Assembly: GCA_022448265.1 (NCBI GenBank)
Contig: JAKVCC010000005.1
Location: 172,536-220,817, forward strand
Reading direction: 5' to 3'
DNA: 48,282 bases
Origin: Pirellulales bacterium
GTDB taxonomy: Bacteria; Planctomycetota; Planctomycetia; Pirellulales; Lacipirellulaceae
Part shown: positions 18,712-32,332 of the stretch, in pieces
Layout of the letters: every line of letters starts with the position of its first letter
Numbering within the stretch: position 1 is the stretch's first letter
The notes under the pieces: generated by a model
Told to the model about the DNA's origin: nothing
What the model saw: the letters and a program-made list of their open reading frames with translations, nothing else
Databases searched by the model: none
Made by a program: the position numbers and the translations under genes

Positions 18712-21700
18712 GTGCCAAAATTATCTACCGGCCCGACGCGCGCAGCGATGCTAGCATTGGTGGGGTTGCTTGGCACCCATCTGAATCCCGGCCCTGTCGC
18801 GGCCCAGCAGGCGCCGCAGCTCGCCCGCGACTCGATTCCCTCGCGGATTTACTTCCAGGCGATCGAAGAGCTTTACCGGGGTGAGTACCGCGATGCCGAG
18901 CGCGTCTTTAAGCGGGAGGTGCGTGGTGGAGTCAAAATTGGCGTTACCGGACGCTGGATCGATACGATTTGTTACCGCGCCATGCTGGGGGAGGTCTACT
19001 ATCACCAAGGCCATCCAGCGCTGGCTCTTGAGCAATTTGACCAGGCCTGTGAGATGTTTTTGCAATATCCGAACTGGCTATTGCGGGTTGAATTCAAACC
19101 GCTGCAGGCGGATACGAATCGATTGAATCGTCCGCCTCCATGGGGCAACGGGAGCCGGAAATTTACGTTGGGAAGATTTCCACGGCAAATGCTCATCCGC
19201 CAAGGCGATCTTTTCTCGGCGAAGCGGGCGGTTCAACAGGGCGGGGGAGTTATCTCGCAGCTTCAGTTCTGGCAAGTGAATGTCGTGGAAGTGGTTCGTG
19301 CGACGGCGCTTGCGATTCGGCGTCGCAATGAATTGCTAGGCCCTTTGGCCGCCTACGATGCGCTTTCCAAAGAGTTGATCACCGCCTTGTCCCATGGTGG
19401 TGCGCCGCCCAATCATTGGTCTAATGCATGGGTCGATTTACAATTAGGACTGGCTTATGCCGATCCTAAGCTGGCACTACCACGATTGCAGCGTGCAGAA
19501 CGTGTCGCGGGGAAATACGACCATCCGCTCACCTGTGTGGCGCTGCTCGAGATGGGCCGGTTGAACCTGCAAGTCGGTCATCTGGACGCAGCTCAGCAAT
19601 TGTTTGAAGACGCAATTGCCTCGGCTTTTTACTACGACGATACCGGTGTTATCGATGAGGCGTTTCGACTGCATTCGATCTGCCGGATGGCCGCGAATCG
19701 CGAAGGCGTCAGCGCTGCTCTGGATACGGCTATCGCTTGGGCACGAAGAAACCGCTATGACCACGTCGTGGCCCGGCTGTGCTTTGCGCTGGCCGACGAG
19801 TCGATGGCGGCAGGCCACTGGGAGGCGGCGGCCACGGCACTGAAAGCGGGCCAGGCGCGATTGAAGGATGCGGATGCCGGTTTGTTAGGCAACCGGTCGC
19901 GTTTTTTGCAAGGCCGCCTACTGCAGGCGGATGGGCATGCGTCGGCACGAGAAACGCTGCTGACGGCAATCGCCCAGCACGTCGGAATGTCGACGCATAA
20001 CAACCAGTTGGTACTCGCCAATGCCCGCTTCGACCAACGGCAACTTTCAACCCGATCCGCGCTCAAGGTGTATCAGGAATTACTGGGCGATCCGAAACCT
20101 GTCGAGCAGGTGCTGGCGCCCCTGGAAACGCTCGCCAGGCTTAAGACGCCCCATCAAGATGCTTTCGATCGTTGGTTTGCCGCTGTTTCACCCAAAGATA
20201 TAGGCAGGGCCCTGGAGATCAGCGATCTGGCGAAGCGGCATCGTTATTTGCAAAGGCTTCCTTGGGGAGGCCGGCTGGCCGCTCTCCGCGGCGCGCTGGA
20301 AGCGCCGGATGAGTTGCTTACTCAACACGCTCGCGGGCAGCGCAACGAACTTCTGCTGCGGTTTCCGGAGTATGCCGAAGCGCGCAAGTTGAGTCGGAAC
20401 TGGGAAGCCGAGCTTCGTGCGCGGTGGAAAGCAGTTCCCGATGCAAGGGCCGAGCGAGATCTGGCCAAGGTGTGGCGCCGCTGGGAAGCCTCAGTTAACG
20501 ATCGCGAAAGTATGCTCGGCGCAATGAGTACTGTGCGGGTGCCGGCCGATATCCAGTTCCCTCCCATCAAGGCCACTGCGGATTGGCAGGCGCAGCTCAA
20601 ACCAGGGCAGGCAGTGATGGTATTTCACGATACACCCGCTGGGCTGCACGGTTTTTTGCTCACGCGCAAGTCGGCCACGCGCTGGAATTGTGGCCCCAGT
20701 GGCCGCCTGGTCGGTCCGCTACAGGCCTTCCTCCGCGGTCTGGGTAACTACGACGCCAACCATGAGTTGTCAGCGGATGAACTGACCTCGCAAGATTGGC
20801 TTACATCGGGCAGCAGGTTGGCGCAGGCCTTATTGAAAGATTCTTCGATTGACCCTAAATCGATGACCGACTTACTGATCATCCCCGACGGCCTGGGCTG
20901 GTACGTGCCCTGGGCGGCTCTTCCGAGTTTGGGCGAAACCACGTTGATACCCCTGATTAGCACGACGCGCATCCGCTTCGCGCCCACTGTGGGCCTCGCT
21001 TTTGCGCCGCACGCGTCCTTGCGGCGGGTCCAGCGAAGTGGACTTGCGGGCCACAGCATCTTGCCCGGCAAGACGGATGCCCAGAGAGAAGAATCGCTGG
21101 TCCGCTTGCGCGCTTGCCTCGAAAACCCACTTGATTTAATCAGATCCTTGCCGGTGCCCAATTCGATTTCGGGTGCATTGCTGGAAACGCTGGTGGTTCT
21201 GGACGAGACAGAGCTTAATCTGGACGAACCGCTGGTATGGTCGCCCATTCCAGAGGGCCGTTCTGCCCGGCAGACTTCGCTCGGTGACTGGTTGCGCCTG
21301 CCCCAGTTTGGTCCGCAGCGCGTTATTTTTCCGGCTACCCATACGATTGCCGAGCGGGGCGGTAAAGGCTCGAAACGCAGAGGGGCGGCCGCGCCGATGG
21401 GTACCGAACTGTTTCTTGCCAGTTGTGGCTTGATGGCGTCTGGCGCCCAAACCATTTTGCTGAGCAACTGGCGGGTAGGGGGGCGATCCACGGTGGAGAT
21501 TGTCCGAGAGTTCTTGCAGGAACTGCCGCACATGACGGCAGCCGACGCGTGGCAGCGGAGTGTGCAGCTGGCTCGTGAAATGCCGGTCGAAGCAGCCACC
21601 GAGCGGCGGGTGAAGGCTGGCAAAAACGACGCACTGATTACCGCGTCGCACCCTATTTTTTGGGCTGGTTACCTGCTGCTGGATATCAGCGAGCCAGTGC

Positions 21701-21780
21701 CGGTTGCCGGGGAGGCGGGGGAGCAGAATCCGCCGATTGCACGGCTGGGAAAAATGGCAGCCAGTGGACGCTCGAATTAG
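18712..21780 (+). CDS. Secreted TPR-CHAT domain protein (caspase-like protease fold)
   Basis: The 1022-aa product starts at GTG 18712 with GAGGTG six nucleotides upstream. A signal peptide is visible: AAMLALVGLLGTHLNPGPVAA, cleavage probably before QQAPQ near residue 31. Residues ~45-480 are helical with TPR-like repeats (YFQAIEELYRGEYRDAERVF, HPALALEQFDQACEMFLQYP). Residues ~620-1000 form a CHAT domain: LLIIPDGLGWYVPWAALP, then the His of ATHTIAERGG (H877) and the Cys of LFLASCGLM (C905), then IFWAGYLLLD. CHAT proteins are clan CD-type peptidases related to caspases and separase. The His/Cys dyad is intact, so activity is plausible, but the substrate is unknown. No gasdermin-like or CRISPR partner lies nearby. 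Confidence 0.85.
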   Translation: MPKLSTGPTRAAMLALVGLLGTHLNPGPVAAQQAPQLARDSIPSRIYFQAIEELYRGEYRDAERVFKREVRGGVKIGVTGRWIDTICYRAMLGEVYYHQGHPALALEQFDQACEMFLQYPNWLLRVEFKPLQADTNRLNRPPPWGNGSRKFTLGRFPRQMLIRQGDLFSAKRAVQQGGGVISQLQFWQVNVVEVVRATALAIRRRNELLGPLAAYDALSKELITALSHGGAPPNHWSNAWVDLQLGLAYADPKLALPRLQRAERVAGKYDHPLTCVALLEMGRLNLQVGHLDAAQQLFEDAIASAFYYDDTGVIDEAFRLHSICRMAANREGVSAALDTAIAWARRNRYDHVVARLCFALADESMAAGHWEAAATALKAGQARLKDADAGLLGNRSRFLQGRLLQADGHASARETLLTAIAQHVGMSTHNNQLVLANARFDQRQLSTRSALKVYQELLGDPKPVEQVLAPLETLARLKTPHQDAFDRWFAAVSPKDIGRALEISDLAKRHRYLQRLPWGGRLAALRGALEAPDELLTQHARGQRNELLLRFPEYAEARKLSRNWEAELRARWKAVPDARAERDLAKVWRRWEASVNDRESMLGAMSTVRVPADIQFPPIKATADWQAQLKPGQAVMVFHDTPAGLHGFLLTRKSATRWNCGPSGRLVGPLQAFLRGLGNYDANHELSADELTSQDWLTSGSRLAQALLKDSSIDPKSMTDLLIIPDGLGWYVPWAALPSLGETTLIPLISTTRIRFAPTVGLAFAPHASLRRVQRSGLAGHSILPGKTDAQREESLVRLRACLENPLDLIRSLPVPNSISGALLETLVVLDETELNLDEPLVWSPIPEGRSARQTSLGDWLRLPQFGPQRVIFPATHTIAERGGKGSKRRGAAAPMGTELFLASCGLMASGAQTILLSNWRVGGRSTVEIVREFLQELPHMTAADAWQRSVQLAREMPVEAATERRVKAGKNDALITASHPIFWAGYLLLDISEPVPVAGEAGEQNPPIARLGKMAASGRSN

Positions 21781-23621: not shown

Positions 23622-23815
23622 GAGTGGAGCCATATGGTTGCGTGCGGATGTGCTCCGTGAGATACTGGAAGGGGTTGCTTGCCTGCTTCCCCGAAGCCAA
23701 TCCAAAACCATCGATTGACGGCAAGATCCCCGAGGATTTTAACCCCAGGTCAGATGTTTAAACTGGCCCGGTTTTGACGCAGGTTCTACTTGCTACACTG
23801 CTGAGGTTTGGGAAA

Positions 23816-24118
23816 ATGAGAAAACTTGCTGTGTTGCTCGTTGCGGCGACTTTTTGGTTCGCTTGCCAGGCGGATGTTGAGGGGCAAACCGCATATGTGA
23901 CCTATTATCAACCGGTGACTGTCTGCCGCCCGTACATTGCAAGCTGTCCGGCACCCCAGGTTGCCTGCTACGCACCAGCGGTTGCTCCCGTGATGTATCA
24001 ACCTGTCGCGCGGGTCCGCACGCGTTACCGAGGTTTTTTAGGGGGTGTGGTATCTCGAGTCCGCTACGGTTATAGGCCAGCGAGCGTTGTGCCCTACCCC
24101 GTGATGCGGGCCTATTGA
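23816..24118 (+). CDS. Small secreted Tyr/Pro/Val-rich protein
   Basis: A 100-aa product from ATG 23816 (MRKLAVLLVAATFWFACQAD), with a Sec-type signal ending near VEGQTA. The mature part is built from YVTYYQPVTVCRP, a Cys/Pro block (YIASCPAPQVACYAP), PVMYQPVARVRTRYR and GVVSRVRYGYRP. Similar tiny secreted proteins with YVTYY and PV-rich runs are common in planctomycetes and have no known function. An upstream start at 23774 would bury the signal peptide behind 14 residues. Three Cys suggest disulfides or cross-linking in the envelope. Confidence 0.65.
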   Translation: MRKLAVLLVAATFWFACQADVEGQTAYVTYYQPVTVCRPYIASCPAPQVACYAPAVAPVMYQPVARVRTRYRGFLGGVVSRVRYGYRPASVVPYPVMRAY

Positions 24119-24278
24119 AGCGGGGCGCTTGTCTGTAGGCGCTCCGTGGTGAGGGTTTGAAGATTCTCCGGCGAGTGCACGGCAGTCGGCGGTTGGTGCG
24201 GCGGGATTGGCGAGTCGGAGTTGGCAAGTCGCTGTTGGCAACTGGCGGCTGGTGCCTAGCGCCCAGCGCCTACATATC

Positions 24279-26984
24279 ATGGCCGAGCTGAAAACGTTTC
24301 TGTTTACCGACATTTTCCGTAGCGTCGATCTGAAGAATGAGATGGTCGGCCGAAGCGTGACGGAGCGCGATCAGGCCTTTATCGAAACCATCCTCACGCC
24401 CCATCGGCAACGCATCGAAGGGCACTTGGAAGAGCATGGCGGGCGCGTGGTGTCGACGGCCGGCGACGGCCATTTCTTGGTGTTTGACAATACGGTGCGT
24501 GCGGCCCTGTGGGCCGTCGACGTCCAGTGCGATCATCGCGACAATCGGATCCAGACTCCCGGTGATGGCCATGTCGAAGTGCGGATCAGCATTCACGTCG
24601 GCGTGCCTCAGGCCGATCCGTGCGACCCACATAACTTTGTTGGCAAGAGCGTTGATTACGCGTCCCGTTTGAATGACTACGCACAGGGGTCTCAGGTCCT
24701 GGTTTCCCGCAGTGTCATGGCTATTTTGCACGACGTGGGCCTCGAAGGCATCGACTTCCATCCGCATGGCCGGCGGCATTTGAAGGGAATTGGGCGCGTC
24801 GAAGTTTATGAACTTCTGTACGACTCCAGTCAGCCAGCGCCCCTTCGACAACGCCCGGCAAGCCAGTCCGACCGCCAATGGACGGTGTTGCCGACCGAAG
24901 GCCTAGACGAAACGCGCGAAGGGGGTCTGGCATCGGATGCCGCCATTGCGTCGACGGAGATGCTCAAGCGGGTCGGCAACTATGAACTCGAAGAGCGACT
25001 TGGCAGCGGAGGCATGGGCGATGTTTACAAGGGTCGCCATATTCAATTTGGCCGCGAGCGCGCGATCAAAGTCATCAAGCCACAATATGTTGCATCCGGC
25101 AATGAGGATGTGATCAGCCGCTTCTATCGCGAGATAAAAGCGGTTGGCGCTATGGAGCACAAAAATATTGTAGTGGCGATCGATTCTTCTGCCCCCACCG
25201 ACAAGCATCACTATCTGGTGATGGAATACATAGACGGGGTGGCTTTGAATGATTTAGTGGATCAGGTGGACCATCTTTCGCTCGCCAACGCTTGTGAGGT
25301 GGTACGTCAGGCCGCGCGAGGGCTGCAGTACATTCATCGTCATGGCATGGTACACCGCGACATGAAGCCGTCAAACTTGATGCTCACGTTGGTGGACGGC
25401 GACGGCATGGCTACCGACTCCTCTCAGGTTCAGTTCGCCGAAGGCGTCCAGGGTGTTGTGAAGATTCTTGATCTGGGGCTAGCACTTTTGTCTGAGGAAA
25501 AGCATGATCGGGTCACGCGCTTTGACAACAAGGCGATGGGCACCGGCATGTACATGTCGCCTGAGCAGTGGAAGACGACAAGCGTCGATATTCGTGCCGA
25601 TATCTACAGCTTGGGCTGCACGCTCTATCATCTGCTCGCGGGCAACCCGCCTTTTTTCGACACGGATTTGCGACCCGAGAAGGCGCACGAAAAATCGCGG
25701 CTCCCACCCATCCGTGTCGGGACCCCATTGCCGCGCAAACTTTGGGAAGTGCTGCGGAAGATGATGGCAAAACAGCCCGATGATCGCTATGGTACTCCCG
25801 CAGAAGTTGCTGTCGCTTTGCTGCCGTTTACCGAGGGACACAATCTGGCCAGCTTGGTGCGGAACTACACGCATTCGGATGCCGAGTCCAGCTCGCATCA
25901 CCACACGCGTTCCGACTCGTGTACCCGTATAGACACTTGGCTCTCTCGCGCCAGTCACATTTGCCCTAACGGGCGATGGCTGCTCAGCCGCGGCCTGCCC
26001 TTACTGTTGGTGGGAGGGTTGCTGGCCGGATTATTTTGGAAAATTGAGCAGGGCAACAAACAGACGATTGCCAACGCCATGCGGCGCGAAAAAAACAGCC
26101 TGCTCAAATTCGCGGAAGAAGTGGCTGAGGACAAGATCAGTCCTGAGATTACCGAGCGATTTGAAATCTTGCTCCAAGGCGCCAGCGATCCGGAATTGAT
26201 CGCGATGATGGAGGTGTTTAGCGAACAAGAGGCGCGTGCCAAGGGGAGCGATTATCCTCTCGCCAAATGGATCGAAAAGCAGCGAAAGGATCATGGCGTT
26301 GAATTCAGATCTAGCAGTTGGTTTATCAATGATGCGCAGGGACGGCAGATTTCTCGTCATCCGCTCCTCGATAAAGATGGCCAGATCGTTTCGACATTTA
26401 TGAATGATTTCTCATTCCGAGATTATTTCCATGGTGAAGAAAAGGACCGGTCTCCTGACAACACGGCGGGAGTCAAGCCGATCACGGCACCGAATATCAG
26501 TGCAATCTACGAGAGCCGTAATAGTGGTAAGCTCAAAGCAGCCTTCTCGGTGCCCATTTGGTCGGCACATGAAGACCCCGCTGCCCGTCGCCAGCTAGGC
26601 GTCCTCTCCAGTTCGTTCAACTTGGGTGAATTCGAAATATCGGACCTTAGTTACAGCGCAGGAAAACAGGTCATACTGGTTGATTTGCGTCGCGACTTCC
26701 TAGATGGCACGGCCCGGCAAGGACTCATTATCAATTACGACGACCAGAGTATTTGGAAGCAGGAGATTCCACCACGCATCGATTCTCGAGTTCTTGCAGC
26801 CCTGGAATCTCCCCACGAGAACTTTGTGGCTGGTTATCACGACCCGTTATCGGTTAAGGCCAAGACCACGTATTGGGGCGCCTTTAAGGGCGTGACCTAC
26901 AAGATTTCCCATCCCGTCACGGGCCACCTCCAAGAGGTGCCTGCCGGATGGTTCGTGCTGGTACAAACGGAAGCCATACAGTAA
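24279..26984 (+). CDS. Receptor-type fusion: class III cyclase-like domain, Ser/Thr kinase, membrane segment, extracytoplasmic sensor
   Basis: The 901-aa product starts best at ATG 24279 (MAELKTFLFTDIFRSVDLKN). Residues ~1-185 are a class III nucleotide cyclase homology domain. Metal aspartates D11 (FTDI) and D63 (AGDG) and R130 are kept, but the specificity Lys is S59, the specificity Asp is N119 and the transition-state Asn is D126. Residues ~234-505 are a Hanks-type kinase: LGSGGMGDVYKG, AIKVIK, HRDMKPSN (catalytic D361), ILDLGLA and GTGMYMSPEQW, so it looks active. A transmembrane helix (LPLLLVGGLLAGLFW) lies near 570-590. The last ~300 residues resemble a Cache/PDC-type ligand sensor (SSSWFINDAQGRQISRHPLL). 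It is probably a membrane receptor kinase. The cyclase part may be regulatory or use a different nucleotide. Confidence 0.85.
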   Translation: MAELKTFLFTDIFRSVDLKNEMVGRSVTERDQAFIETILTPHRQRIEGHLEEHGGRVVSTAGDGHFLVFDNTVRAALWAVDVQCDHRDNRIQTPGDGHVEVRISIHVGVPQADPCDPHNFVGKSVDYASRLNDYAQGSQVLVSRSVMAILHDVGLEGIDFHPHGRRHLKGIGRVEVYELLYDSSQPAPLRQRPASQSDRQWTVLPTEGLDETREGGLASDAAIASTEMLKRVGNYELEERLGSGGMGDVYKGRHIQFGRERAIKVIKPQYVASGNEDVISRFYREIKAVGAMEHKNIVVAIDSSAPTDKHHYLVMEYIDGVALNDLVDQVDHLSLANACEVVRQAARGLQYIHRHGMVHRDMKPSNLMLTLVDGDGMATDSSQVQFAEGVQGVVKILDLGLALLSEEKHDRVTRFDNKAMGTGMYMSPEQWKTTSVDIRADIYSLGCTLYHLLAGNPPFFDTDLRPEKAHEKSRLPPIRVGTPLPRKLWEVLRKMMAKQPDDRYGTPAEVAVALLPFTEGHNLASLVRNYTHSDAESSSHHHTRSDSCTRIDTWLSRASHICPNGRWLLSRGLPLLLVGGLLAGLFWKIEQGNKQTIANAMRREKNSLLKFAEEVAEDKISPEITERFEILLQGASDPELIAMMEVFSEQEARAKGSDYPLAKWIEKQRKDHGVEFRSSSWFINDAQGRQISRHPLLDKDGQIVSTFMNDFSFRDYFHGEEKDRSPDNTAGVKPITAPNISAIYESRNSGKLKAAFSVPIWSAHEDPAARRQLGVLSSSFNLGEFEISDLSYSAGKQVILVDLRRDFLDGTARQGLIINYDDQSIWKQEIPPRIDSRVLAALESPHENFVAGYHDPLSVKAKTTYWGAFKGVTYKISHPVTGHLQEVPAGWFVLVQTEAIQ

Positions 26985-31960: not shown

Positions 31961-32332
31961 ATGTCGAAACTGCACGTGTTAGCGGAACTGGAAGTCGTGG
32001 GTCGCGGGCCCGACTGGTTATTCATCAGGCTGCGTCCCGATCCGGAGCATCTTGACGACTTGGCCGAACGTTTGTGGAAACTCATGAACAAACATTTTAT
32101 TCACCGCCTGGTGCTTGAAATGGACGAGGTCGAGTATCTGCCAAGACGTCTGATTGGCCAGTTGGTGATGTTGCAGAGGCAGGTACTCCAGCACGACGGG
32201 GCGCTCCGGTTGTGCGGCCTCTCCGTGGCCTGTACTGAATCGCTGCACCTGTGCCGGCTGGACCAAGCCTTGCCTAATTTCGTTTGTCGCGAAGACGCCG
32301 TACGCGGCTGCAAGGCAGCCAAGCCGCGCTAA
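31961..32332 (+). CDS. STAS-domain (anti-anti-sigma-like) protein without the usual phospho-Ser
   Basis: The 123-aa single-domain protein starts at ATG 31961 behind a clear GGAGG. It has the STAS layout: strand VVGRGPDWLFIRL, helix HLDDLAERLWKLM, strand HRLVLEMDEVEYLP, helix RRLIGQLVMLQRQVL, strand LRLCGLS and a final helix. In classical anti-anti-sigma factors the loop before the third helix carries a phosphorylated Ser (D-S-S-G). Here that place reads LPRRLIGQL with no Ser or Thr, so switching by an RsbW-type kinase is unlikely. It is isolated, with no kinase or phosphatase gene beside it, and converges with the GH10-like gene 2 nt away. Confidence 0.75.
   Translation: MSKLHVLAELEVVGRGPDWLFIRLRPDPEHLDDLAERLWKLMNKHFIHRLVLEMDEVEYLPRRLIGQLVMLQRQVLQHDGALRLCGLSVACTESLHLCRLDQALPNFVCREDAVRGCKAAKPR

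Follow-up and report, generated by a model that had tools for sequence, protein, structure and literature searches.

What does a class III cyclase homology domain (CHD) do at the N-terminus of a receptor kinase once the residues that read the base have been replaced? The question is raised by one gene in a 48,282-nucleotide stretch of DNA from a Pirellulales bacterium of the Lacipirellulaceae, a family of aquatic budding bacteria (assembly GCA_022448265.1, contig JAKVCC010000005.1, positions 172,536 to 220,817 of the forward strand; hereafter the window, with position 1 as its first letter). The gene is an ATG-started open reading frame (ORF) at 24279–26984 (+), stop codon included, whose translation has 901 residues; a longer TTG start at 24207 is unneeded, since the aligned relatives start MA(E/Q)L(K/R)T. 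The original prediction, made from the sequence of the window, had described a receptor kinase with an altered cyclase domain, and the present analysis confirmed that this observation is real and that the domain is conserved and non-canonical. The domains, their order, the conserved residues and the single membrane helix were established directly, and the sensor fold in the form of a predicted model.

The N-terminal domain (residues 1–186; 24279–24836, +) was assigned to the class III cyclases, as had been proposed, by two kinds of match. Residues 6–179 matched Pfam Guanylate_cyc (PF00211; 36.3 bits, above the cut-off of 21.9; E 5.4e-9), and the solved structure nearest to the first 191 residues was Ma1120 of Mycobacterium avium (E 2.3e-8 with the single sequence, improving to E 4.8e-14 with a profile of 13 sequences); other class III cyclases among the solved structures were matched as well. 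Alignment to Ma1120, with its residue numbers taken from PMC4215837, placed Ser59 (24453–24455) at Lys101, Asn119 (24633–24635) at Asp157, Asp126 (24654–24656) at Ala164 and Arg130 (24666–24668) at Arg168, and Asp11 (24309–24311) faced the Ma1120 FTDI motif. The six active-site positions thus read D11-S59-D63-N119-D126-R130, in agreement with the original assignments: both metal aspartates, Asp11 and Asp63 (24465–24467, in a GDG motif), and the transition-state Arg130 are retained, the adenine-reading Lys/Asp pair is changed to Ser59/Asn119, and Asp126 stands in place of the transition-state Asn. The residue types that are kept belong to the metal and triphosphate side of the class III site, and the altered ones recognise the base and hold the ribose in place, as described in PMC4215837 and PMC4886424.

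We then considered how firmly the altered site is held. Residues 1–186 were used as the query against 296 genomes of the order, and CHD matches were found in 48 of them. The window's own family accounted for most of these (40 of 43 genomes, the source genome counted); outside it one match was strong, in genome G105 (44% identity, E 5.8e-47), and seven were weak, none of them better than E 5.4e-8. Among the named relatives are Bythopirellula polymerisocia and Aeoliella straminimaris, whose genera are assigned to the Lacipirellulaceae (PMC13315336). An alignment of 40 rows was made from 39 of the 40 family carriers plus G105; a 113-residue fragment from G005 was excluded, and the rows L086 and L093 were cut by contig ends. 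All 40 rows had the identical set D-S-D-N-D-R at positions 11, 59, 63, 119, 126 and 130, including the row from another family. Neither the Lys/Asp pair and transition-state Asn of canonical adenylyl cyclases nor the Glu that marks guanylyl cyclases at the first base-reading position was therefore present in any of the 40 rows. All six site positions are among the 39 of 186 CHD positions that were invariant, for which the chance with six random positions is 6e-5 (kinship not corrected), and by eye the invariant residues cluster in the site-forming stretches (D11/S15; G55-R56-S59-T60-G62-D63-G64-H65-F66; N119/G122/V125/D126/Y127/R130). Over 19 relatives, mean identity to the window protein was 74% for the CHD and 73% for the kinase, with 39% for the sensor and 42% for the linker, so the CHD and the kinase are conserved to the same degree. 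Since 40 of 40 homologues share the replaced residues, decay of a canonical cyclase was ruled out.

A variable linker (residues 187–232; 24837–24974, +; model pLDDT <50 at 194–228) joins the CHD to a Ser/Thr kinase domain (residues 233–520; 24975–25838, +), which matched Pfam Pkinase (PF00069) at 235–506 with E 2.6e-47. The complete set of Ser/Thr kinase motifs was found, namely the G-loop, the VAIK-type Lys, the alpha-C Glu, HRD, the DFG-type Asp, Pro-Glu and the alpha-F Asp. Residues G244, G245, G247, K264, E285, H359-R360-D361, K363, N366, D398-L399-G400, T422, E429 and D441 were unchanged wherever a row extends over them (38 to 40 of the 40 rows at each position), and G242 and A262 had one differing row each. 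A fold search with the whole-protein model returned Mycobacterium tuberculosis PknB and PknA as the top solved folds, and only kinases among the best 50 matches. The description of this domain as an active-looking kinase thus stood, with the addition that it carries DLG in place of DFG.

Behind the kinase, a variable juxtamembrane segment (residues 521–567; 25839–25979, +; mean identity 38% over 521–568) leads to one transmembrane helix at residues ~568–586 (25980–26036, +), with a Kyte-Doolittle 19-residue peak of 1.82 at 568; in all 38 rows longer than 600 residues, the strongest hydrophobic 19-residue window lay at the corresponding position. A Pfam scan of the 901-residue protein gave no match in its C-terminal part. 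An AlphaFold model of residues 604–901 (26088–26981, +), built with 19 relatives, had a mean pLDDT of 89.0 and a pTM of 0.89, and its best structural match was the PscC sensor (6mni; Z 19.3, root-mean-square deviation 2.8 over 227 aligned residues), followed by chemoreceptors and histidine kinase sensors. Foldseek matched DctB (E 1.4e-9) and also PctA/PctC. The predicted model shows the build of a double Cache domain, with two PAS-like lobes and a long helix at the N-terminus, so that the Cache-like domain foreseen in the original prediction can be refined to this type, and the single helix foreseen there is likewise conserved. With one hydrophobic segment ahead of a double Cache domain, the CHD and kinase would be inside the cell and the double Cache domain outside, and these results support a layout of outside sensor, single membrane helix and inside kinase and CHD. 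Three relatives (loci L112, L113 and L110; ORFs of 1268, 1230 and 1111 residues) keep the CHD and kinase and have the double Cache domain exchanged for a long, different C-terminal region.

Taken together, these features suggest that the kinase is probably tuned by a CHD that detects, or else converts, a nucleotide, with the outside domain sensing a chemical. A more specific version, which we hold with belief and doubt in about equal measure, is that the protein is a two-input receptor kinase in which the CHD binds a metal-nucleotide with low or no turnover and controls the pairing of the kinase. On the outside, the double Cache domain would bind a small molecule. On the inside, the CHD would use the metal-triphosphate half of the class III site that it keeps (D11, D63, R130 and probably S15), and it is this retention, together with the replacement of the base-reading pair by Ser/Asn and of the ribose-positioning Asn by Asp, that leads us to propose metal-nucleotide binding. 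The ligand would be held at the CHD homodimer interface, where it would most likely be cyclised slowly or not at all; class III CHDs generally function as dimers (PMC4886424). Nucleotide-dependent pairing or re-orientation of the CHDs, along with pairing of the Cache domains, could then unite two kinase domains for trans-autophosphorylation, and the kinase would thereby answer both an outside ligand and the nucleotide state of the cell. Nucleotide binding, CHD dimerization, kinase control and low turnover are steps that we infer from sequence features.

Four observations weigh against this proposal. No CHD match was found in three of the 43 family genomes, one of which (G016) is 96% complete. 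Two genomes of the family (G022 and G026) and G105 have a different C-terminal region in place of the Cache sensor, judged from matches to the query that end at 588 and 532 and from inspection of the sequences by eye, meaning that the outside input varies. The whole-protein AlphaFold model had a pTM of 0.40, with pLDDT <50 at residues 110–123, which contain Asn119, so the model does not define the pocket. Finally, low turnover is a guess, because the transition-state Asn is dispensable in some active enzymes: Ma1120 has Ala at this position (PMC4215837) and Rv1900c has His (PMC4886424), and changing the Ala of Ma1120 to Asn strongly cut its adenylyl cyclase activity (PMC4215837). The original interpretation, in which an outside signal is read by the C-terminal sensor and the N-terminal domain binds a nucleotide or makes a non-standard product, was supported as to the layout, but its premise that loss of the Asn is informative proved weaker than assumed.

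These active enzymes are also the reason why we regard a working cyclase as a possible, though distinctly less favoured, explanation. The CHD would then act on another substrate or make another product, from GTP, a pyrimidine triphosphate or several nucleoside triphosphates, with Asp126 doing the work of the Asn, and would be regulated by the kinase or by the sensor. The invariance of both metal aspartates and the Arg agrees with this, strict conservation at all six sites suits an enzyme, and the cyclases that make cCMP or cUMP have quite different base-reading residues (PMC11224242). However, the CHD is fused to the kinase in the full-length family members and equally conserved, and no cyclic-nucleotide receptor, PycTIR or PycTM included, was found among the nearest genes, to which this check was confined (those for phosphoenolpyruvate (PEP) carboxykinase, a 114-residue ORF, an SBF-type transporter and alaS). 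The one cyclic nucleoside monophosphate-binding protein found in the assembly is encoded on a different contig and could serve the genome's canonical-site cyclase (L009); the two other PF00211 domains of this genome read DKDDNR and DDDGNR, both with the transition-state Asn. The PycC models of the Pycsar system (PADLOC), which have no curated cut-off, matched the CHD weakly (best E 1.9e-4, 19 bits).

If, instead, nucleotide binding had been lost, the CHD would be a mere pairing scaffold with a relic pocket. Replacement of the canonical Lys, Asp and Asn would be expected on this account, and the dimeric nature of class III CHDs (PMC4886424) means that kinases could be brought together by their fused CHDs even with no ligand bound; a relic pocket drifts, however, yet the six sites and many of their neighbours are invariant in every row, which makes the scaffold unlikely. 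Even less credible, and in our judgement very improbable, is an ordinary adenylyl cyclase that produces cAMP and on which the substitutions have no effect. The matches to Guanylate_cyc and Ma1120 are significant, but neither of the adenine-reading residues remains and those in their place are fixed, and most of 157 CHDs without a kinase from outside the family keep the Lys (134), the Asn (143) or both (127). The most economical reading of the sequence data is that the CHD binds a nucleotide, with its turnover changed or abolished, and that it may in this way pair or orient the kinases.

The comparison beyond the family also raised the question of whether Asp126 goes together with fusion to a kinase. 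The sample consisted of 171 CHDs from outside the family, taken from the first 300 loci of Planctomycetota (172 minus L101, a family member with Gln61), and was enriched, having been gathered with the query's own profile. Position 126 held Asp in nine of the 14 kinase-joined CHDs (two Ser, one Asn, one His and one Ala in the others) and in three of the 157 without a kinase; the CHD precedes the kinase in 11 of the 14 (eight Asp, one Ser, one Asn and one Ala). A less biased census with PF00211 covered 121 places in 13 genomes (five unfetched), from which 115 different CHDs were counted; the loci L279, L282 and L288 had no row of their own, their CHD being counted under another locus, and L288 (= L133), a TIR-FHA protein, is a case of Asp with no kinase. 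The CHD-then-kinase proteins here had three Asp, all from a single genome (G308), one Asn and one Ala, the only kinase-then-CHD protein had His, and among the CHDs without a kinase Asn was found in 101 of 109 and Asp in none. In a tree of 109 rows, in which the 45 Asn rows are a random draw, the Asp rows formed two main groups: the window clade, which contains G105 and an NB-ARC protein of G662 (support 100/100), was separate from the other. A single Asp clade was nevertheless not rejected by the approximately unbiased (AU) test (p 0.294; 20 rows, L315 left out), and a comparison of independent pairs showed no link between Asp and the kinase, so a single ancestral change to Asp is enough. There are exceptions both ways: Asp126 occurs without a kinase in NB-ARC, TIR-FHA and TPR proteins, and kinase-fused CHDs with Asn are known from L278 and L339 (kinase first). 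A rule that Asp126 marks kinase-fused CHDs was therefore not established, and the association may be taken as a lead rather than a result.

Related variant CHDs stand N-terminal to kinases, TIR-FHA, NB-ARC and TPR parts, and this placing in front of kinases, TIR-FHA and NB-ARC fits an input module. A Pfam scan of six kinase-fused proteins placed WD40 parts after the kinase in two; three had TPR there, the match in L169 being weak, and one had a sulfatase-modifying-factor domain. One variant CHD, with the site DDDLDR, lies ahead of a TIR effector and an FHA domain (G366; L133, 1399–2892, the same protein as L288). A non-kinase relative in the CHD's own clade (G662; L121/L150) has the site DGDNDR and is fused to an NB-ARC/STAND ATPase, the gene being cut by a contig end. 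Outside the phylum, samples of 30 loci each, made from best matches only and biased towards the profile of the kinase-fused CHD, were drawn from two phyla. In the one to which the Myxococcales genome G678 belongs, two of the 31 CHDs had a kinase within the fetched stretch (L331 with Asp, L339 with Asn); in the one that includes the Anaerolineae genome G679, none of the 29 did, and His was the most frequent residue at the Asn position (15 of 29). Most of the His-bearing CHDs in this second sample (L361–L390) carry Asp, Arg or Ser where the Lys would be. Five single genomes gave no kinase with any of 28 CHDs, 24 of which had Asn. These samples show that non-canonical CHDs are not rare, and that the CHD of the window is part of a broad, little-characterised zone.

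How does the protein compare with known systems? Receptor kinases of the PknB type have the kinase inside and a C-terminal sensor outside, as does the window protein. The kinase domain is related to those of the single-pass PknB/PrkC-type PASTA kinases (NF033483), but scored 225 bits against a cut-off of 450, with a double Cache domain in place of the PASTA repeats and the CHD ahead of the kinase. Animal receptor guanylyl cyclases combine an outside sensor, one helix and kinase-like and cyclase-like domains in one chain, in the reverse order to the window protein. Their kinase-like domain is without catalytic residues (PMC1262709); they have a dead kinase and a working cyclase, whereas the window protein has a kinase that looks active and a cyclase site that is changed. 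Kinase–cyclase fusions are already known in bacteria, but with the opposite domain order. PKN2 of Myxococcus xanthus combines an active Ser/Thr kinase with a non-standard CHD, and a single membrane helix leads to a part outside the cell at the C-terminus (PMC1262709); it differs in having the kinase before the CHD and in its site residues, with Glu-Thr as the base-reading pair, and the outside part, of ~200 residues, is described as unlike known domains. The TOMM kinase/cyclase fusion (TIGR03903) likewise has both domains in one chain, but the window kinase part reached 102 bits against a curated cut-off of 705.75, and the model has the kinase first (positions 4–235 matched) and the CHD-matching part after it (362–446, E 0.0037). 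Ma1120 (4wp9, 4wp3 and 5d0g) shares both metal aspartates, the Arg and the absence of the transition-state Asn (PMC4215837), but retains Lys101/Asp157, was solved as a lone cyclase domain and produces cAMP. STAND/conflict-system proteins described in PMC8195603, with Gemmata among the hosts, also have a cyclase domain as the N-terminal module of multidomain signalling proteins, joined there to iSTAND2, TRADD-N or caspase parts rather than to a Cache receptor kinase. The word 'cyclase' is absent from the main text of a survey of Planctomycetota Ser/Thr kinases (PMC11032199), and searches of the open-licence PMC literature, a scope outside which subscription journals and preprints lie, gave no description of this protein family among the titles and abstract openings that were listed.

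The neighbouring genes are a TPR-CHAT protein gene, an ATP-type PEP carboxykinase gene and the 114-residue ORF upstream, and an SBF-type transporter gene (opposite strand) and alaS downstream. Among the loci of 21 relatives the transporter recurred in 12 and alaS in seven; several loci are short, so missing neighbours carry little weight. No kinase-specific partner gene was evident at these 21 loci, and no TOMM genes were found among the nearest genes of the window. The TPR-CHAT gene (18712–21780, +), upstream of the PEP carboxykinase gene, encodes a 1022-residue protein that matches TPR and has a CHAT domain (caspase-like peptidase) in its C-terminal part. The ORF directly upstream of the kinase gene (23774–24118, +) encodes a Tyr/Pro/Val-rich product with a hydrophobic N-terminus and no Pfam match, and ORFs at four of the 21 loci resemble it. 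Past alaS lies a gene for a short STAS-domain protein of the anti-sigma-factor antagonist type (31961–32332, +). Promoter-like sites were not above shuffled sequence; terminator-like sites numbered 8, against 4.1 (sd 2.0) in shuffles.

Non-canonical bacterial cyclase-like domains were frequent in the sampled loci, and in the Lacipirellulaceae one of them is fixed in front of a kinase whose output is easily assayed, so that the question of whether such a domain senses or makes a nucleotide becomes directly testable. As a tentative suggestion, the fixed Ser59/Asn119/Asp126 set may represent a new intracellular input for receptor kinases, either a nucleotide-gated switch or a non-standard cyclase, with the change from Asn to Asp a possible hallmark of effector-coupled CHDs in Planctomycetota and beyond. 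If the CHD gates the kinase, the family would have a receptor kinase that integrates a chemical signal from outside with the nucleotide state of the cell.

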